This document shows, in pieces, positions 39,439-59,198 of a stretch of DNA of 64,000 bases (positions are counted from its first letter, which is position 1; each line of letters opens with the position of its first letter). The notes below the pieces were generated by a model that had not been told where the DNA came from, searched no databases, and saw nothing but the letters and a program-made list of their open reading frames with translations. This DNA comes from Escallonia rubra (lineage: Eukaryota; Streptophyta; Magnoliopsida; Escalloniales; Escalloniaceae): NCBI GenBank assembly GCA_033065855.1, contig JAVXUO010001795.1:1-64000 (forward strand). Reading direction: 5' to 3'. The translations under genes and the position numbers were made by a program.

Positions 39439-42400
39439 GTCTATAATGAATTAGTTCCCTTTCGTTTTTGAACTAAGGATTTAGATGTGTCAGTATAGGC
39501 AATTTAAGTGTCTCTAAAAACACCTGAAATGAAAATTTTGGTCACTTTTCGTGTGTAGTTAAATTGCAAATTATTGCTGAAGATTTACATCTCATTTATT
39601 GTTAAAAATAAATTAGCAAAAATAAATAAATAAAAAGATTCATCATATTGCTATGGTGCCGCTGCCAATTTTACAATGAATGTAGACTTATTTTCTCTGA
39701 TTGGAAAGGAACGTTAAGCAACCCTACTTCATGAATGCTTCAAAACACAATTGCCACTCGAATAATATATAACATTATAAAGGGAATGCTGCTTTGCCTT
39801 GGAACTATTTTTCCAAAGCGTGGCTCCAAGTGATGCAGCTTTTGATCAATTTATTACCTTATTGTTACTTTGTTGAAATTTTGAGTATATTCTTGTCAAT
39901 TTACACTTAATCTAAACTAGGTTATATTGGAGCCCACTGTTAGAAAACTCGGCCACTCCTTGGAAAACTTTATAAGTTATACCAACTTTTTTCCCCACTT
40001 TTCTAAGCCTATGTCAAAAAAAATTAATTGCTATGATTATAGTGACACGTGTTAAGGCTGGTGGATGACATCTAAGAAGTTGTAAAATTTTCAAACGATA
40101 GAAAATAAAGTATAGTTATCTTAATTTCTTTTACTGGTTGTACACGTCAGCTCGTTACATCCGTTGCGTTGCACGGCATAAGTTCACCATTCACGTTGTC
40201 CTAAATTTTTGCACTGGAGTCAACGCCTGGCTAATTACAGTAATGCCCTCTTTGGCTCCTTATGTATTTTCGTGTTGCAACTACTATTATCATCAGCATA
40301 AGCCTTTTGACTCTGAACATGGTCCTACTGTCGCATTAATCTATGTTAGCAAATCGTGTTACAGTTGTGCACATTATTGGGCTATTATTAAAACTTTTAA
40401 AGATCAAGGAATTTCATCTGCTCGTCACGTCCTTGCTTGTAGTTGAGATGCTCGAGTCTCTTTATGAAGCCAGGGTTTAATGGAATTTCGTCAATTTCAA
40501 ACCTTGACATGGATAATGATGATGGACTTCTTACATAAAAACGGACGGACCAAAAAAAGGGAGGGCAACCCCAAAAAGCTTTGAGATTTTTTATTTGTTT
40601 GGAAAGAAATGCAAAAATAGACGGAAAAAAGGTGAGAAAATAGCAACACCCTAAATTACTAGAGACAGTGTTTCCATAGAAATACTAAGAACCTGCTTGT
40701 GGGAGGAGAACGCCAGTTGAAAACGGCTGCCAATAACCCGTACGCCAAAGAGAGCAAAAAAAGGAGGAATCCACCTAAGGAATGGGTTGCGTCTAATTAG
40801 TAATGAAATTGACCACAAATTTTATCTTTTCAAACTTTAGCTTGAAAGCACATATGCAAGGGGTCATTCCTATACGAATGCGAATCTACTTACGGCTATA
40901 TCTAATCTCGTGATCCCTGAAAAAAGAGTAGAAGAGATGATTTGATTATTTTATTTTTATTTCTCTAACGAGGGATGCATAAAATATATACATATGGTCC
41001 AAAGGGAGCAAGGATTTCAAGGAAAATCGGGAAGATTTCGATTCGAACTATTTTTAAATGATTAAATTGCATCAAGAACATTTTGTTTAATACTGCAAGA
41101 GGTGTAGAGAAATTTTGAAGATAAACTAAAATGCAAAATCACAATACTTGATTCAGTGGGCCCTTGTATCATTGATGTTTGAGGGGAAATTAACAACGTA
41201 ACAGGATCATGTCTCAAGTTTTGACACGAATAATTGCTGCTAATACCTAGTAGCCAAGATCCGAATTCCCAAGTCAGTCCAGAAAACTAGGGTTATTATC
41301 ATCATAAGTCAGTCAAGAAAACTAGGGTTATTATCATCATAAGTCAGTCCAGAAAATTAGGGTTATTATTTTAATCCCATAAAAACAGCCACCTTAACCA
41401 CATGTTTAGGTTTTCTCCAATGGTTTTTGCATGTGCTTGTTGATTTGGTTGTCTTAAATCCTCTCGGCAATCCCAATTCTAGTAAAGTATCAGTACAGTA
41501 ATTCTGTCACAATTTGGAGTCACATCACACAGATTTCCTTCTTTTGATAAATAAAAGTGAAGAAATATATATCTCCGGATAAATAGTACATATATAATTA
41601 ATTTTTTTTTATCCTTTTTAATCTCTTCTTGTATCATATCAACTCCTCCTTAATTAAATGTACCCAAATAGTCAGACCAATGGATAGGTCAGGCCATTTA
41701 TTCGTCGTAGAGACAAAGAAACCGCGTTAGGAGAACGAGAAGTTGCATGTGCCAAAACAACAAGCGCCCCCCCACCCCAACGCCAGGATAAATATCATAT
41801 AAATGAAAAAAGTTAGGCTTTTTAAACTTGTAATTAAAAAAGTTAGTTTTGTAATGAATAATGTGACACATCTTGATTCATGTATTTGAAGAACATTTGG
41901 TTTCAACAGGTAAAATGTCATCTTAGTTTGGAACTGCTTTTTTGCAGCATACTTAAAAAGCCTAACATTATTCAAACAATGAAGTAGCGTGTGTTAAGAC
42001 ACGTACTCTACAAACCTGTATCATGTAACAGTATAATAAATAATACTTAACCTTCTTTTAGTTAAACACAAAATTATTCTTGCTTTTGTAAAAAGGTATT
42101 TCTGCGCGTGTGAATAAGAATAGTCAACGAGAATATTCAACTTTTATAGCAGGCTTCTTTCCTTTTTCTTTTTTCTAATTTGGTGCAAAGTTTTGGAAAC
42201 AAAAAGTACTATTAGTACCCCTTATATACTTTTTAATCCTATTTTTGTTGCTAAACTATAATACAAATAACTTTTTCACAGCAAATGAAAAGGTGTAATA
42301 ACATATTGAGGAGTGAACATAGTAAGTACTCTTTTAAAAAATATATCTTGTATAATATTTGTCATTCCTAGTTAGTGAGGTTCATTCTGTACTAACACCT

Positions 42401-51012: not shown

Positions 51013-51390
51013 TTTCTTTTAGGGTTAATTACAAAACTGTCCCCTGTGGTTTACACATCTTTGCACTTTGCCCCTCGTGTTTACAACTTTTGTAATAATG
51101 TCCCATGAGGTTAACAAAACCATTGCAATTAACTCCAAAACTGAACGGTCGTTCAAATTCAGCCATTAACAGCCCACGTGCACAGCACACCCAGTTTTCG
51201 CATGGGTAGATCGGTCATTTTTTATCCCCATGTTCCCTTGGTTATGACGAAATCATTTTTCGATCCTCATGTTCCCTAAGTTCAGTGTTGGTATGGTGTT
51301 TAAAAACAACAAAGTTTTCAAGGAAGCTGTTAGGCAACATTCTATTTTAGAAGGAAAACCAGTGGTATTCCCGAAGAATGAATCAGGGAG

Positions 51391-51630
51391 GGTTAGGGCT
51401 AGGTGTGCTTCAGAAAGGTGTCCATGGTAGGTGTATGTATCTAGGATGCAAGGAGACAATGAGGTTGATTTGGTTGTGAAGACTGTAGTAACCCAGCACA
51501 CATGTACCAGGGTTAGGGCTAGGTGTGCTTCAGAAAGATGTCCATGGTAGGTGTATATATCTAGGATGCAAGGAGACAATGAGGTTGATTTGGTTGTGAA
51601 GACTGCAGTAACCCAGCACACATGTACCAG
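51391..51630 (+). repeat. 120-bp in-frame tandem duplication of the transposase zinc ribbon
   Basis: Units 51391-51510 and 51511-51630 differ at only a few bases. Each encodes 40 residues with RARCASERCPW and THTC-type ligand residues (QHTCTR). Both copies have the same TAG right after the CPW codons. Confidence 0.92.
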
Positions 51631-53204
51631 GGTTCACAAGAATAAACATGTGACCAGTACTTGGCTAACTGCTAGATACATTAGAGATTTCAAATTAAAT
51701 CCTCAAATGAAGGTTGGTACTTTGAGAAATACATTGATGAGTGATCACAAACTAGATGTGCCACTTTGGACAGTTTATAGAAGCAAAAGAAAGGCATCAA
51801 TGATGGTTGAGGGTAATATAATGAAACAGTTTGGGCAGTTAAACTCTTACATTGATGAGCTAAGGAGAAATAATCCTGGCACCACTGTAGATCTATAGTA
51901 TGAACCAGGAGGCCTAGGACAGGGTGAGTATAGGTTTCAAAGGATTTATATATGCCTTGGTGCATTGAAGGAAGGGTTCAAAGCTGGGTGTAGGAGATTG
52001 ATAAGGCTAGATGGGTGCTTTTTGAAAGGTCCCACTAATGGTCAGCTCTTGACTGTAGTTGGCATTGATCCCAACAACCAAATGTACCCAACGACATATG
52101 CTATTGTGGAGGCTGAAAACAAAGACTCTTGGGGTTGGTTTGTACAGCTTTTAGGTGATGACTTAGAGATAGAAGATAGTTTGAGATGGACATTTTTGTC
52201 TGACAAGCAAAAAAGGTTGGTTGGGAGCATAGAGTCATTGTATCCTCATACTTAGCACAGGTTTTGTGTTATGCACTTACATGTAAACTTCAAGGCAGCA
52301 GAGTTTACTAGGATTACTTTGAGAGATGCTTTGTTTGTTACAGCCAAGGCAACCAATGTGGTGAGATAAGAACATAGAATGTAAGAGATGGCTGACATAG
52401 ATAAGGAGGTAGTGGCTTGGCTTAATGATAAGCCACCTACAGAATGGTCTAGGTCACATTTTAGTACATATGTTAAATGTGATGTTCTTTTGAATAATTA
52501 TTGTGAGAGCTTCAATGCAATGATAAAAAGAAGCTAGGGATAAATTAATCATTACCTGTCTTGAAACAATAAGAAATACCTTGATGGCAAGGTTGAGGTT
52601 TTCTAGGGAACAAGCTGAGGAATGGAATGATGAGATTTGTCCTACAATACAGAGGATAATTGAAAGATGGAAGGTGTATGCTGACGAAGGGATACCATCA
52701 CACTCAAGGGATTTGAGGTTTCAGGTAGCATGTCCATAGGAGGTGGGACTTGAATGGAATTCCCTGTCCCCATGCCATTGCATGCATTTGGCACAAGAAC
52801 CTAGTAGTAGAGAATTTCATCCATGAGTGATACAGTATTGAAACATACAAGAAGTCCTATGCACCCATCATTAACCCAATGAATGGTCCAAGTATGTGGC
52901 CTAAAAGTAATTTGCCCTTCATTCTACCCATCACTTATAGAAGGCCAAGTGGTAGACCTAAGAAACTGAGGAGAATAGACAAATATGAAGCTGAGGATAA
53001 CATAGGCACTGACAAGATGTCAAGGAAAAGAACAACAACTAGATGCAGCATATGCCATCAGCTTGGGCACAATAGGTGGAAAAGCCAGAGCAACAGACAT
53101 AATACTTCCTCAGTAAGCAATTATTGATTTTATTTAGTTGGCCTAATTGTTGTTTAAACTTTAGCTTAATGTATTGTAACCTCTTTAACGAGGAGACATG
53201 CCAA

Positions 53205-53347
53205 CTGAGCAAGGCAGAGCCTCACAACAGGGAGATATGGCAATTGAGCAAGGCAGAGCCCCCACAACAGAGAAATATGGCAACTGAGCAAGGTATAGCC
53301 CCACAACAAGGAAATATGGCAACAAGCCGCCGGGGGGGGGGGGGGGG
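53205..53347. repeat. Degenerate tandem repeat and G16 run in MULE
   Basis: Four copies of a unit of about 38 bp, ATATGGCAACTGAGCAAGGC plus AGAGCCCCACAACA, lie at 53205-53325. A run of 16 G follows at 53332-53347. It codes for a QG-rich linker of the transposase. Confidence 0.8.
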
Positions 53348-53797
53348 CAGAGCCCCAAGAATGTAAAAGTTACCAGTATGTAAACTCAAAAAATGTATTT
53401 TGAATTGTATTTATAAATATGTGTATTTACTGAAAATGTCTTTGTGCAGACTAGGAGGCAACAAATTTCATCCCAACCAAGCCAAGGTGCTCCACAAAGC
53501 TCAGCTGTTACGGAGCAGATACCAGCAAGGTTTATGCCAAATCCACAGTCAACAACCCAAAGACCATCATGGCCTATACCAAGCATGGTAGAGCCACAAC
53601 CAACATCAGGCCAAGACACTCCATTCATAATGAGAGGGGGTAAGAGGTACGTGAGTTTGTCAAATCTGAAAGATGCAGCTGTTGGAGGTGGCCAAAGCCA
53701 AGGTGGCCAGAGCATAGGGAAAGAGAAGACATCCAAGGGAGGTCCAAGCCAGATGAATGAGAATTCAAAAGACAAAGGAGGCCCCCAAATCCAACTG

Positions 53798-54794
53798 TAG
53801 GACAAATGAGCACAAGATCAAGAGCAACTACAAGGAGTCAAGGTGAAGGACAGACAAAGGCTGATGCAAAGGGAAATGGAAAGCAAAAGTGTTCAGATGC
53901 CAGTGTAGCCTAGTTTTGTGAATGTAGAGGACTCACTGTTAGTTTTTGTTCAAAGTATAGGTAGGTTGGATGATTTTTGGAAGGTAGTAGATAAATTAAT
54001 AGGTGGCTGGTTTTTGGAAGCCTATTATATACACTAGAAGATAGTGCCAAAGTATATATTTTTGTATGATGAATGTAATTGGAATTGGAAAGGATGATAA
54101 TGTTTCTATGTTGGATGTAATTTAATTGGAAGATTGATGACAAAAACATTGATTGTGAATCTGTATGTTGGATGTAATGTAATTTGATTAATTCTGATGA
54201 GATTTGGTTGTAAAGAAGATTTGATCAAGAGCAGCTGTTATTGGATGTAATGTAATTTAATTGGAAATAAAATTTGGTTGATGAAAAAACCATTGGTTGT
54301 AATGTAATGACAGATTGTGATGATGTTTTATTTCATCCATGTGATGAAAAAGATATTTTTGCACTTGTGATGAAAGAGATATCTGCCATTGAGATGATGC
54401 AATTGCATTGTGCTGTATTATAATTGGAATACAACATGTAGTGTTTAGGGACAGGTCCATTTCAACATGTAACAATGTACATGGGACATATTTGTCCTGA
54501 AAATGTAAACCCCAGGATACACTTTTGTCAATTATTTTAAAGGGCAGGGGACAAAATTGCAAAATACATGGGACACTTTTGCTCGGTATGTGAAAAGTAC
54601 GGGGGACACTTTTGCCATTAACATTCAAACCACAGGGAACAGAAATGCAAAAATATTGAAATTGAAATTAGCATCATTATTTTGTTTCAGTACACAACTT
54701 GGAAACATGGGATGTTGATTCTTTTAGTACAATCCCTCATGCCATAGCTCAAAACATTACAAAACTCCCTAATTCATTACATTCCTAGCAATTT
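53798..54794. other. MULE interior between its two genes
   Basis: AT-rich, with repeated TTGGATGTAATGTAATTTGA words (54110-54300). The part 54470-54660 contains several GGGGACACTTTTGC/GGGACAAAATTGCAAAA words that echo the terminal repeats (CCCCTGTGGTTTACA). Confidence 0.6.
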
Positions 54795-55162
54795 CTACAA
54801 GCTATTGCCCACATCTTTGCCTCTAATGTTGCTCACGGCCTCTGTCTCATCGCCAAAATCAGACAATAATGCAAGCACAATCATTAGAAGCAACACCCAA
54901 CTACTAATTGCAACAATCTTCCAAAATCTCTCCTTTGACCTGTTAATCGTGATTGGAGGATCACGCCAAGCAAAAAATCCACACCTACCAACCAGTGAGA
55001 ACAAGGAGATTGTTCATTCAGATCAGGAAATTGAAGAAAAAAAGGGTTAAACACAAAACCCACCTGGTTGCTGCAACTCCAGAATCTTCGCCCCGAATTT
55101 AGATCTATCCACGAAATCTTTTTCATGGCTCTCTGACCACACTGACAGTAGACATCAACCAT
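54795..55162 (-). CDS. GRF zinc finger + membrane segment protein encoded by the MULE
   Basis: Minus strand. Exon 1 is 55162-55064 (33 codons): MVDVYCQCGQRAMKKISWID, then LNSGRRFWSCSNQ, with a GT donor directly after. The second part, to the stop at 54795, reads RCGFFAWRDPPITINRSKER, FWKIVAISSWVLLLMIVLAL, then LSDFGDETEAV. Together they give the GRF-type zinc finger (C-x-C-G, GRRFW-x-C, CGFF-x-W) followed by one hydrophobic helix (residues about 60-75). GRF fingers bind single-stranded nucleic acid in other proteins. The acceptor before the second part (GGTAG at about 54987) does not give the right phase, so the splice is uncertain or damaged. The gene reads inward from the right inverted repeat, which would supply its promoter. 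Confidence 0.7.
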
Positions 55163-55522
55163 GAGATGGTTCTTCGAAGTCTCTATCTCTCTCCTTCCCT
55201 GAAGTCTCTCTCTCTCTCTCCTCTCTTGAAACCCCTGGAGAAATACTGGAGCATAAAGAGATTTTGGAGGGAAATAGAAGTGAGTGACAGTTTTGGAGGG
55301 AACATGGGGATTGGAAATGACCGATCTACCCATGCGAAAACTGGGAGTGTTGTGCACGTGGGCTGCTAACGGCCGAATTTGAACGGCCGCTCGATTTTGA
55401 AGTTAATTACAATGATTTCGTCAACCTCAGGGGACATTATTACAAATATTGTAAACACGAAGGGTAAAGTGCAAAAATGTGTAAATCACACGGAACAATT
55501 TTCTAATTAACCCTTTCTTTTA

Positions 55523-56744
55523 TTTGCGAAAACAAAAAAGTAAAATACTTATTTAAATTCCATATTGGTCTAAAACAAATTCGATTTTATAAGATATTCA
55601 AGCTCTAGAGGAAGTCTAATTCCACTTTTATCTTTTAATTAATCTCGTAAGAGAGAGGGGTATTCCAAGAAGTTGACTATAACAAGGGACCCACTATCTC
55701 TCAAGTTGCTTGACATCCATGGACGCCGGTACGAGTTGGTTGAGAGAGCTTGACTCTTTCCTCACATTCGTCCAACCTCACATTTAACTATCACAGCAAG
55801 CATTCATTTCCTTTGAGGATCTCCCCATCCACCTTCTTTCAACATTTCATAATAATATACACATATGCACCCTATATGCATCTGTGTGACTGTATATTTC
55901 TCGATTAAACAATCCATTATCTGATTAAACAAGTTAACTATGGATCTGTCGTCCACATAATACAAAATCCCAGTTTGAAAGTTTTTGTGACAAAAACGTT
56001 TAAAAAAAGGTTGAAACCCATCTCATATTTCTCCAATTATTTGACATAAGCACAAGAAAGCTGTTTCAGCGCATTCTGTTTGTATTTTTCATCTTGATTC
56101 CAGAAAAGGCCAGAGGCCCTTGTCTGCAAATCCACTTGTTTGTGCCCAAATTTAGTCAGCTTGTTGTATTGAATTGATACCTACCTCTCAATGGTATGTA
56201 ATTCTGTCAGTAAAGCTTGCTTCTTTGCTGCTGCAATTGGGTCTTTATCTCGTTTCATGGCTAAATCAAGAGTACCCATTTATTGTTACTGGTGATTCTC
56301 TTCTTGCTCAGTCTTTATTTTAGTGGGTCTTTGTTCAGTTTGGTGGTCGTGGTCTCTTTTTGCTGACTCTTGTGGTTTCTTGAAACTTTTATATGGGTTC
56401 ATGGGTAATTGAAGCTTACCCATGAATTGACATTGATGATCCTCTTCTTTTCTTGTCCTTTTCCATCTGGGGGTCTCATGTCATGCTGGTATGCACTTCT
56501 AAATCTCAATATTTGGTGTTTGTAAAACCAGTTGTTCAGCTTTCTTGCAGAATTTTGGGTTTTCATATCATTGCTTGGTGCAGAATTGGAACTTACTTCA
56601 TATGTAAACAGTTCATGGGTTACTTTTCTTCCTTTCTTGGCCCTCAATTTCCAAATTGAAATCCCTTCAATTTCATTTTCATTTTCATTTTTGGCTTCAA
56701 TTTTCCTGTATTCAGCTGAATATCGTCTTTTTATTGACGTGATC
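55523..56744. other. Upstream region of the SD2-5-type kinase gene
   Basis: AT-rich sequence. Probable promoter and 5' leader lie within the last 600-700 bases. CTTTCTTGCAG at 56539-56549 could be the acceptor of a leader intron. An in-frame ATG at 56532 would add 71 residues, but they lack a signal peptide pattern. Confidence 0.5.
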
Positions 56745-59198
56745 ATGGAGACTAGGACATTTTGCTATGTTATGGCAATGTGTTTGATATTTCTCTTTCT
56801 GCCTAAAACTTGTCTGGCTAGTGTACAAGTTATTGGCAAGTTGGAACCAGGGTTTCAAGCCTCTCAGATGAAGTGGATAGATAATGATGGGATTTTTCTA
56901 GTATCCAACAGTTCAAATTTTGGCTTAGGCTTCAAGCCTACCAAAGATGTGACGATGTTCCTACTTGTTGTCAAACACTTGAGCAGTTCAACGGTAATCT
57001 GGTCTGCAAATAGAGGATTCCCAGTTTCGAATTCCGATAACTTTGTGTTTGATGATAGTGGTGATGCTCACTTACAAAGTGGGGAAACAGTAGTTTGGTC
57101 TGCGGGTACTGCCAATAAGGGTGTTTCTGCAATGCAATTGCAGGATTCTGGGAATCTGTTGCTGCTAGGAAATGACAGTAGTATAATTTGGCAGAGTTTT
57201 GGCCATCCAGCAGATACCCTTTTGTCCAACCAGGAATTCCGTGAAGGGATGAAACTTGTAAGCAATCCCAATAACAACCTGAGCTATATCCTTGAAATCA
57301 AGTCTGGAGATATGATTCTTTATGCAGCTTTCCCTACTCCACAGCCTTACTGGTCTATGGTAAAGGATAACCGAAGAACCATCAATAAAATTGGCGGTGA
57401 AATGAGTACTGCCTCGCTTGATGGCAAATCATGGAGGTTTTATGACCAAAGCAGAGTCTTACTCTGGCAATTTATCTTCAATCAGGACACTGACACAAAT
57501 TCCACTTGGATTGCTGTTCTAGGAGATGACGGCTTTATCTCATTTTCTAGACTTCAGAGCGGAGGTTCTGCTAATCCTTCCTCCACCAAAATTCCACTTA
57601 ATTTTTGCAGCACACCTGAACCATGTGGTCCATATTCTGTATGTTCTGATGTCAATACCTGCCAGTGCCCTTCAAATCTTGCTTCGAATCCGAACTGTAT
57701 GCCGGAAAATGCCAATTCATGCAATGGATCAAAGGGTTCTTTTGAGCTTGTGAGTCCCGGGGATGGGCTCGGGTATTTTGCGCTTGGTTTTGTTCAACCC
57801 TCTTCTAAGACCGATTTAAGTGGTTGCAAGAGTTCTTGCCTTGGCAACTGCTCTTGTCTTGCTTTGTTCTTCGAAAATAGTTCCGGGAATTGCTTTATGT
57901 TTGATCAGATAGGAAGTTTGCAAAGCTCCAATGGTGCTTCTGGTTTTGTTTCACTCGTTAAGATCTCCGGTACTGGAGGCAGCGGAGGAAATCCTGGAGG
58001 GGGTGGAAGCAGCAAGAAACGTGTTCTCTATATCACCATCATAGCTGTTTGTACAGTACTTGTGATTCTTGGTCTACTTTTTGCTGGAATTTATTATTAC
58101 CGAAAGAAGAACAAGGAATTGCCGGAGCCTCTTAAAGACAACTCTGAAGAGGATAATTTCTTGGAGAGTTTATCCGGGATGCCAGTTCGTTTTTGTTACA
58201 AAGATCTTGAGACTGCTACTAGTAACTTCTCAATGAAACTTGGGCAAGGAGGGTTTGGATCAGTTTATAAAGGGGTTCTGTCAGATGGAACACAATTGGC
58301 TGTGAAGCAATTGGAAGGCATTGGTCAGGGAAAGAAAGAATTTCGAGCAGAAGTTAGTATCATTGGCAGTATCCATCACCACCACTTGGTGAGGCTCAAA
58401 GGATTTTGTGCTGAAGGCGCTCACCGCCTCCTTGTTTATGAGTACATGGCAAATGGTTCTCTTGATAAATGGATCTTTCGGAAAAATGAAGAGGGTTTCA
58501 TGTTGGATTGGGACACGCGATACAACATAGCAGTGGGCACAGCCAAAGGGCTGGCATATCTCCACGAGGATTGCGATGTGAAAATCGTTCATTGTGACAT
58601 AAAGCCGGAGAACGTGCTTCTCGATGATAATTACCTTGCCAAAGTCTCGGATTTTGGTCTAGCTAAGCTAATGACTAGAGAGCAGAGCCAGGTTGTCACG
58701 ACGCTAAGGGGAACTAGGGGGTACCTTGCACCAGAGTGGATCACAAACTACGCGATATCTGAGAAGAGTGATGTTTATAGCTATGGAGTGGTATTGCTTG
58801 AGATCATTGGTGGTAGGAAAAGCTATGACGTGTCAGAGAACTCAGAGAAATCCCATTTTCCATCTTATGCTTTCAGGATGTTGGAAGAAGGGAAGCTGAA
58901 AGACATCCTCGACTCGAAGCTGCAGATAGACGAACACGACGAGAGGGTTCCTATAGCAATTAAAGTTGCATTGTGGTGTATACAGGATGATATGTACCTA
59001 AGACCACCAATGACAAAAGTTGTCCAGATGCTTGAAGGTCTCAGTGTTGTCCCTCCACCACCAACTTCTTCTCAAATGGGCTCCCGACTTTATGCGGGCT
59101 TCTTGAAATCGACCAGCGAGGAGGGCACTTCGTCAGGACCATCAGATTGCAACAGTGATGCATATCTTTCTGCTGTACGTCTTTCAGGGCCGAGATAG
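56745..59198 (+). CDS. SD2-5: G-type lectin S-receptor-like Ser/Thr kinase, SD2-5 type
   Basis: Intronless, 817 residues. The start at 56745 gives a proper signal peptide (residues 1-25, ending TCLA). A bulb-type lectin domain follows (WSANRGFPVSNSDNFVF, LQDSGNLLL, IIWQSFGHPADTLL), then an EGF-like segment (CGPYSVCSDVNTCQCPS). A PAN-like cysteine region (CKSSCLGNCSCLALFF) follows. One membrane helix lies at about 427-451. The cytoplasmic kinase has its glycine loop LGQGGFGSVYKG near 500, lysine 521 (AVKQLEG), HCDIKPENV with catalytic D618, DFGLAKL at D636 and APEWI. HCD instead of HRD makes it a non-RD kinase. Known: this family sits in the plasma membrane and signals from the cell surface; the ligand is unknown. 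Length and order match Arabidopsis SD2-5 (about 820 residues). No break is seen. Confidence 0.95.
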   Translation: METRTFCYVMAMCLIFLFLPKTCLASVQVIGKLEPGFQASQMKWIDNDGIFLVSNSSNFGLGFKPTKDVTMFLLVVKHLSSSTVIWSANRGFPVSNSDNFVFDDSGDAHLQSGETVVWSAGTANKGVSAMQLQDSGNLLLLGNDSSIIWQSFGHPADTLLSNQEFREGMKLVSNPNNNLSYILEIKSGDMILYAAFPTPQPYWSMVKDNRRTINKIGGEMSTASLDGKSWRFYDQSRVLLWQFIFNQDTDTNSTWIAVLGDDGFISFSRLQSGGSANPSSTKIPLNFCSTPEPCGPYSVCSDVNTCQCPSNLASNPNCMPENANSCNGSKGSFELVSPGDGLGYFALGFVQPSSKTDLSGCKSSCLGNCSCLALFFENSSGNCFMFDQIGSLQSSNGASGFVSLVKISGTGGSGGNPGGGGSSKKRVLYITIIAVCTVLVILGLLFAGIYYYRKKNKELPEPLKDNSEEDNFLESLSGMPVRFCYKDLETATSNFSMKLGQGGFGSVYKGVLSDGTQLAVKQLEGIGQGKKEFRAEVSIIGSIHHHHLVRLKGFCAEGAHRLLVYEYMANGSLDKWIFRKNEEGFMLDWDTRYNIAVGTAKGLAYLHEDCDVKIVHCDIKPENVLLDDNYLAKVSDFGLAKLMTREQSQVVTTLRGTRGYLAPEWITNYAISEKSDVYSYGVVLLEIIGGRKSYDVSENSEKSHFPSYAFRMLEEGKLKDILDSKLQIDEHDERVPIAIKVALWCIQDDMYLRPPMTKVVQMLEGLSVVPPPPTSSQMGSRLYAGFLKSTSEEGTSSGPSDCNSDAYLSAVRLSGPR

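Follow-up and report, generated by a model that had tools for sequence, protein, structure and literature searches.

In the maize element MuDR, both genes are driven by terminal repeats of about 200 bp, and the second, mudrB, has been described as necessary for integration (excerpts of PMC8224964); mudrB is reported from Zea only (excerpts of PMC3276141). Other Mutator-like elements (MULEs) carry accessory open reading frames (ORFs) that include antisense plant-mobile-domain ORFs (excerpts of PMC6446971), a ULP ORF in grapevine (excerpts of PMC2528002) and the reversed ORF of the Abermu elements, whose origin and function are left open in the excerpted text of PMC9168764. The GRF zinc finger of NEIL3 is known to bind single-stranded or forked DNA (excerpts of PMC9266487). 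Here we analyze a MULE in a window of 64,000 nucleotides from Escallonia rubra (contig JAVXUO010001795.1; the window is this whole stretch of DNA), in which the second gene encodes a GRF finger followed by a predicted membrane helix, and we conclude that this gene is almost certainly a conserved accessory gene of these MULEs.

A decayed two-gene MULE in the window

An inverted-repeat search (seed 12) reported a sole inverted pair of at least 30 nt between positions 40000 and 64000, at 51021-51238 and 55297-55514, and the element that it bounds has the following parts:

51013-51021, no strand: left target-site duplication, TTTCTTTTA, an exact 9-bp match
51021-51238, plus strand: left terminal inverted repeat, from the inverted-repeat search
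51022-55513, no strand: decayed MULE copy, with terminal inverted repeats, 9-bp duplication, and MULE and DBD_Tnp_Mut domains inside
51248-53127, plus strand: transposase remnant with DBD_Tnp_Mut, MULE domain and a SWIM region that is partly missing, from domain search and alignment to a relative
53452-53800, plus strand: probable last transposase exon, with a 78% match in locus L026
55297-55514, minus strand: right terminal inverted repeat, upstream of the GRF gene, from the inverted-repeat search
55514-55522, no strand: right target-site duplication, TTTCTTTTA, an exact 9-bp match

The arms are 218 nt long and 87% complementary, in keeping with the long terminal inverted repeats of the MULE superfamily, and they differ from each other by 22 transitions and 6 transversions (K2P 0.144). 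The perfect 9-bp duplication at both ends corresponds to the target-site duplication of about 9 bp that marks MULEs. Reading inward from the left repeat on the plus strand, the transposase remnant retains matches to the MULE transposase domain (PF10551, E 1.9e-11) and to the MuDR DNA-binding domain DBD_Tnp_Mut (PF03108, E 4.4e-11), both above the cut-off. On these features, the element is a decayed member of the MULE (Mutator/MuDR) superfamily.

When compared with the transposase of locus L024, the window remnant contains seven in-frame stops and two frame changes, and neither a complete SWIM finger nor an open transposase frame was found in this element. Two of the seven stops fall in a 120-bp tandem duplication at 51389-51628 (98% alike), both copies of which carry the identical in-frame stop. 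Between the transposase exons we noted by eye an unbroken run of 16 G at 53332-53347, possibly a sequencing or assembly artefact. Adjoining the element is an 890-aa open frame at 56526-59198, which we take to be an S-domain receptor-like kinase.

The second gene encodes a GRF finger and a predicted membrane helix

The preliminary description of this DNA had proposed a second MULE gene that reads inward from the right inverted repeat and joins a GRF zinc finger to a membrane helix, and our analysis bears this out. The gene lies on the minus strand, from an ATG at 55162 to a stop codon whose last base is 54795, with 135 bp between the right repeat and the ATG; the coordinates 54795-55513 first given for it take in the right repeat. 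Its parts, in the model that we use, are:

55064-55162, minus strand: GRF exon 1, with the first three zinc-binding cysteines (family model), from the family alignment
54993-55063, minus strand: GRF intron of the family model, 71 nt in the window, with donor GTGGGT kept and CTG at the acceptor position
54795-54992, minus strand: GRF exon 2, with the fourth cysteine, hydrophobic helix, tail and stop, from the family alignment
54861-54917, minus strand: hydrophobic-helix codons, from hydropathy

Spliced on paper with an initial 68-nt intron model, the predicted protein matches the Pfam GRF domain PF06839 with E 2.3e-9 and 37.7 bits against a cut-off of 25.9, whereas the unspliced frame alone scores 21.8, under that cut-off. 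The model contains the four zinc-ligand cysteines that are also found in the diverged lineages A-D described below, and the closest solved structures to it are the NEIL3 GRF fingers (E 2.1e-8). It has a single strongly hydrophobic stretch, residues 60-78 of 99, with a mean hydropathy of 2.69. The GRF gene is convergent with the transposase and adjoins the other repeat, which is the second position and orientation of mudrB, as had also been pointed out. The window copy is the relic of a two-gene MuDR-type MULE.

Splice sites and damage in the W family

Over the range tried in the window, the frame-keeping introns comprised one GT-AG pair, which gives the 68-nt intron at 55052-54985, and three AT-AC pairs. 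We dropped this 68-nt model for the family model after aligning 22 copies across exons, intron and leader, namely the window copy, locus L026 and 20 fetched copies of the same lineage (hereafter W). The intron is 72 nt long in L046; most copies have the donor GTGAGT or GTGGGT and the acceptor is CACAG. Among the 21 W relatives aligned with the window, 19 keep the acceptor AG and 20 the donor GT. The intron that had been claimed for this gene is thus, as judged from the alignment, real in the W family and damaged in the window copy, where the acceptor position reads CTG. Both parts of the coding sequence remain open, but with this acceptor lost the window copy probably no longer makes the GRF protein by the splicing that its family uses.

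Internal exon stops occur in three of the 21 W relatives (L026, L036 and L041); in L026 the start ATG is gone and there is one stop, and the L039 gene runs past the usual stop position. In 19 of the 20 fetched W copies, a match to the right repeat lies directly upstream of the ATG, ending 107-145 bp before it, which makes it plausible that the right terminal repeat drives the GRF gene. The exception is L036, which has an upstream flank of just 120 bp and a short repeat match elsewhere.

The GRF gene travels with the transposase

We searched the genome (566 Mb, 3222 contigs) with the window MULE piece as query and scored 150 of 1015 candidate places, defining a close W-type transposase as one of at least 70% identity. 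Among the matches listed, there were 59 such places, and for 53 of them a W-type GRF place lay within 8 kb on the facing strand. The distance between the two genes was 2.4-3.0 kb in 47 of 54 W cases, and 75 of the 77 transposase-GRF pairs within 8 kb were convergent (both among the matches listed). By simple arithmetic, 84 GRF places scattered uniformly over 566 Mb would give about 0.14 neighbors for 59 transposases. As the W copies descend from one another by transposition, this pairing means that gene and element move together, and does not represent 53 separate events.

MULEs are known to capture genes, and the preliminary description had offered two origins for the gene: an accessory gene belonging to this MULE lineage, or a host gene that had been captured. 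Capture of a host GRF-helix gene by the window copy alone would account for the presence of the gene in the element and for nothing further. By the refuting condition set out in that description it fails, because the gene sits in dozens of elements: the close transposases that share its place and orientation and the 22 copies that align across exons, intron and leader rule it out, and we regard its probability as negligible. The other origin, an accessory gene of the lineage's own, is upheld by the same pairing and by the enclosed elements described below.

We next consider the places that count against a constant partnership. Among the matches listed, six of the 59 close W transposases had no partner GRF gene and 30 of the 84 GRF places had no W transposase. 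One of the six (C624:95062-95295) is half of the L026 transposase, the other half of which lies with the GRF gene about 6 kb beyond C624:95062; this W copy was probably split by a nested insertion. Among the matches listed, the 91 less similar transposases comprised 16 with a convergent GRF gene, one with a GRF gene in another orientation and 74 with none. We fetched four of these 74. L056 and L057, which represent two further lineages, each contain a GRF gene that faces the transposase and has a split finger and a terminal helix; no GRF gene was found in the fetched 5 kb of L058 and L059, and these two of four loci weigh against the accessory-gene reading. In L058, from position 1653, an 842-aa frame, presumably a LINE-type protein, lies downstream of the MULE transposase, where the second gene would be expected.

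The reverse search, for the GRF family, gave at least 115 matches in the genome, with 150 of 345 candidates scored. From these we fetched 20 GRF loci with 10 kb around them, picked to span the score classes and not at random. A MULE transposase was found in 16 of these 20 loci with window transposase pieces as queries, and in all 16 it was on the opposite strand, facing the GRF gene. The four loci lacking a transposase match were L016, L021, L027 and L028. L027 (5348-5956) is a gene with a GRF finger and a CCHC zinc knuckle, with no MULE match in 10 kb, and is probably a host gene; L028 resembles what we take to be an APE2-type protein. L016 (4532-8454) appears to be a shortened derivative of lineage C, perhaps a non-autonomous form, with 75-nt repeats (89%), a 10-bp duplication, a partial GRF gene and no transposase match. 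No relatives of the GRF protein, of the terminal-repeat pattern or of the MULE piece were found in scans of viral_contigs.

Five lineages enclose both genes and keep the protein plan

In seven elements from five lineages (A, B, C, D and W), the transposase and the GRF gene lie together between terminal inverted repeats that are flanked by an exact 8- or 9-bp duplication:

Window element (lineage W): both genes enclosed, 218-nt repeats, duplication TTTCTTTTA
L024 (lineage A): both genes enclosed, 116-bp repeats, duplication TAATTTCTA
L011 (lineage B): both genes enclosed, duplication AAATTGATT
L025 (lineage B): both genes enclosed, duplication AAAAGGAAA
L013 (lineage B): both genes enclosed, 8-bp duplication ATTTGCAC
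L018 (lineage C): both genes enclosed, 79-bp repeats, 8-bp duplication AAAATATA
L022 (lineage D): both genes enclosed, 48-bp repeats, duplication AAAATTAAA, five bases outside the aligned repeat

Because we searched for these duplications across a range of possible element ends, any single short A+T-rich match is weak when taken alone. In the remaining loci, the duplication search gave a T run only (L017), or repeats were found with no duplication (L009, L010), or the repeat ran up to the end of the fetched sequence (L012). We found no repeat pair in L014 even after extension, no convincing pair in L015, L019 and L020, a 51-nt pair far from the gene with none near it in L023, and one repeat only in L026.

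The GRF domain PF06839 was detected above the cut-off, at 30.0-34.8 bits, in one member of each of lineages A-D (L014, L011, L018 and L022), and L018, L022 and L024 have open transposase frames, 880-980 aa long, that contain DBD_Tnp_Mut, MULE and SWIM domains. Four cysteines are invariant in a 7-row alignment of the A-D GRF proteins. A profile of these proteins matches NEIL3 with E 8.9e-10 and, weakly (0.26), structure 5u6z, which we take to be APE2. The GRF proteins of lineages A, C and D are divergent, being 22-24% identical to those of B, with the finger and helix kept. By sequence, the single hydrophobic helix lies close to the C-terminus, as in tail-anchored proteins, and is followed by about 1-20 residues in lineages A-D and by about 30 in L056 and L057 (counted by eye); for L013 and L016, the most hydrophobic segment lay before the Met or within a truncated frame. 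Some lineages have a charged linker, read by us as coil-like, between finger and helix. In W, and apparently in L056 and L057, an intron interrupts the finger, which is a single open frame in A-D, though B groups with W. Judging from these gene structures, W, L056 and L057 differ from A-D by intron gain or loss within a transposon gene.

Selection and descent of the second gene

Because the window copy no longer has its acceptor and carries a heavily damaged transposase, we dropped its open GRF frame as a sign of selection and judged selection between copies. We calculated dN/dS from Nei-Gojobori counts and applied Fisher tests with rounded counts to four chosen pairs; pairs of copies are not independent, and since copies decay freely after insertion, all of the ratios mix selected and neutral time.

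Between the W subgroups, the GRF gene had a dS of 0.215, a dN of 0.120 and a ratio of 0.56 (bootstrap 0.34-0.92, with 10 of 1000 at or above 1), and the ratio for the finger alone was 0.41 (0.21-0.78). Among the four tested pairs, dN/dS in the GRF gene was 0.28 for the D pair L022/L023 (p 4e-5), 0.19 for the B pair L010/L025 (p 0.017), 0.40 for window/L026 (p 0.016, computed on the initial 68-nt intron model) and 0.59 for the A pair L014/L024 (p 0.15, not significant). The remaining B pairs with differences at both site classes ranged from 0.24 to 0.72, the remaining A pairs gave 0.54 and 0.67, and the four C copies differed at silent sites only. Three W ratios were not significantly below 1: 0.74 (0.34-1.57) for the helix and tail, 0.82 (0.41-1.84) among the recent copies of the larger subgroup, and 0.61 (0.38-1.06) in the smaller one. 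A dN/dS significantly below 1, the sign of purifying selection that had been suggested as a check for this gene, is seen between W subgroups and in the D, L010/L025 and window/L026 pairs, but not for the W helix and tail, the recent W copies or the A pair, and these last results count against our preferred reading. For the transposase, dN/dS was 0.55 in D, 0.32 and 0.19 in A, 0.94 in B and 0.51 in C, the B and C values not being significant.

A passenger without function, copied because it lies between the terminal repeats, would fit the ratio near 1 in recent W copies and the many broken copies. We consider this very unlikely, given that finger and helix persist across diverged lineages, of which there are at least five and probably seven, and that dN/dS is below 1 between divergent copies.

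The two genes do not always show the same divergence within a pair. In the D pair, dS was three-fold higher in the GRF gene (0.338) than in the transposase (0.098), whereas in the A pair L014/L024 it was over two-fold lower (0.183 against 0.445), although the counts in the short GRF gene are small. Unequal dS in one pair means that the two genes did not always move together or that they differ in rate, and the pattern suggests possible exchange of modules between elements. Separate uptake of related GRF-helix genes by different MULE lineages, or swapping of the module, would agree with these values, with the low identity of the A, C and D proteins to B, and with the splitting of the finger in W, L056 and L057 where the A-D frames have no intron. 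On the other side, place and orientation are constant in every lineage examined, the MULE-free GRF loci L027 (GRF plus CCHC) and L028 do not have the finger-helix plan (150 of 345 candidates scored), and trees of the transposase and the GRF gene from the same 12 rows both split {W,B} from {A,C,D}, with support of 100/100 and 98/97, respectively. The other splits of the GRF tree have weak support, and the analysis flagged long branches in it. The shared split would fit old joint descent and is compatible with exchange too; overall, we judge repeated capture or exchange to be rather unlikely as the explanation for the gene.

A proposed role for the GRF protein

In the explanation that we prefer, the second gene reads inward from the right terminal repeat, which would serve as its promoter, and the encoded GRF finger would bind single-stranded or forked DNA as NEIL3 does, with the C-terminal helix tail-anchoring the protein in the ER or nuclear envelope. 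By analogy with known fingers, nucleic-acid binding is quite likely, and the sequence of the C-terminal helix makes membrane anchoring likelier still. Taken together, an old accessory gene that is driven by the right repeat and encodes a strand-binding finger with a membrane anchor is a probable reading of these data. The anchored protein would then help the element, most likely in that it holds or protects the strands that excision and re-insertion leave exposed, and the gene would fill the place that mudrB has in maize. This last step, a helper of (re)insertion, is argued from analogy and we put it forward tentatively, as the more doubtful part of the proposal.

Two other roles would also leave the gene as an accessory gene. 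The protein could shield the element from silencing or repair, with no part in the transposition reaction, for which VANC of the Arabidopsis element Hiun is a precedent among MULE accessory genes (excerpts of PMC6446971); the fast divergence of the GRF protein would fit an arms race. Pfam searches with the window model and with members of lineages A-D showed no likeness to a silencing protein, and we think such counter-defence improbable, though not strongly so. Alternatively, a membrane protein could limit activity by retaining the transposase, or the RNA for it, outside the nucleus, as might suit a small nucleic-acid-binding finger that bears a predicted terminal membrane helix; self-regulation of this kind seems to us distinctly unlikely.

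Comparison with known systems

Maize MuDR resembles the window element in that a transposase and a second gene read inward from two terminal repeats, and it belongs to the same 9-bp duplication class. We liken the GRF gene to mudrB by place and orientation alone and do not file it as mudrB; no description of MURB as a GRF or membrane protein was found in the literature searched.

The ORFR of the Abermu MULEs of grasses is similar in being a reversed ORF between the transposase and the 3' repeat, in elements with 9-bp duplications, and in having Ka/Ks below 1 (excerpts of PMC9168764). Its Ks is higher than that of the transposase, as in our D pair and unlike our A pair, and it differs from the GRF gene in that its position varies between species and no domain is given for it in the excerpted text (PMC9168764; compared by description only). 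A rice Abermu element without the reversed ORF is reported to have been recently active (excerpts of PMC9168764). This argues against the second gene being generally required and counts against our preferred explanation. A broader possibility is that a large part of plant MuDR-type MULEs had the GRF-membrane gene as their ancestral second gene, with Abermu ORFR and perhaps mudrB as diverged descendants and with membrane tethering of cut ends as its role. We hold this to be unlikely; if true, it would mean that a dedicated tail-anchored binder of exposed strands draws the cut ends of these MULEs to a membrane, which would probably be that of the nuclear envelope.

MULEs with PMD, ULP1 or VANB/VANC ORFs also carry an extra gene beside the transposase, often antisense (excerpts of PMC6446971), but the domains of those accessory ORFs are other than GRF, and the term GRF does not occur in the main texts of that MULE survey (PMC6446971) or of the grapevine survey (PMC2528002). 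GLU-U7, a GRF-domain gene inside a MuDR-type element (a Pack-MULE) of the Oryza Ghd7 region, is alike in content and differs in being described, in the excerpts on which this comparison by description rests, as a captured gene fragment (PMC3503983). It is the nearest case we found, no GRF gene being presented as a MULE accessory gene among the matches listed from the open-licence literature. A plant GRF gene that has been annotated as a host gene, or as a Pack-MULE capture, may in fact be a transposon accessory gene.

The GRF fingers of NEIL3 and APE2 belong by sequence to the same finger family as that of the MULE gene. Both are parts of large repair enzymes that are not known to have a terminal membrane helix. 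MULEs with a second ORF in reverse orientation are well established, and the GRF-helix gene is a newly recognized kind of such an ORF. The second gene of Mutator has long been obscure, and the plan of a finger with a terminal helix, present in at least five lineages of one genome, provides a handle for functional tests.
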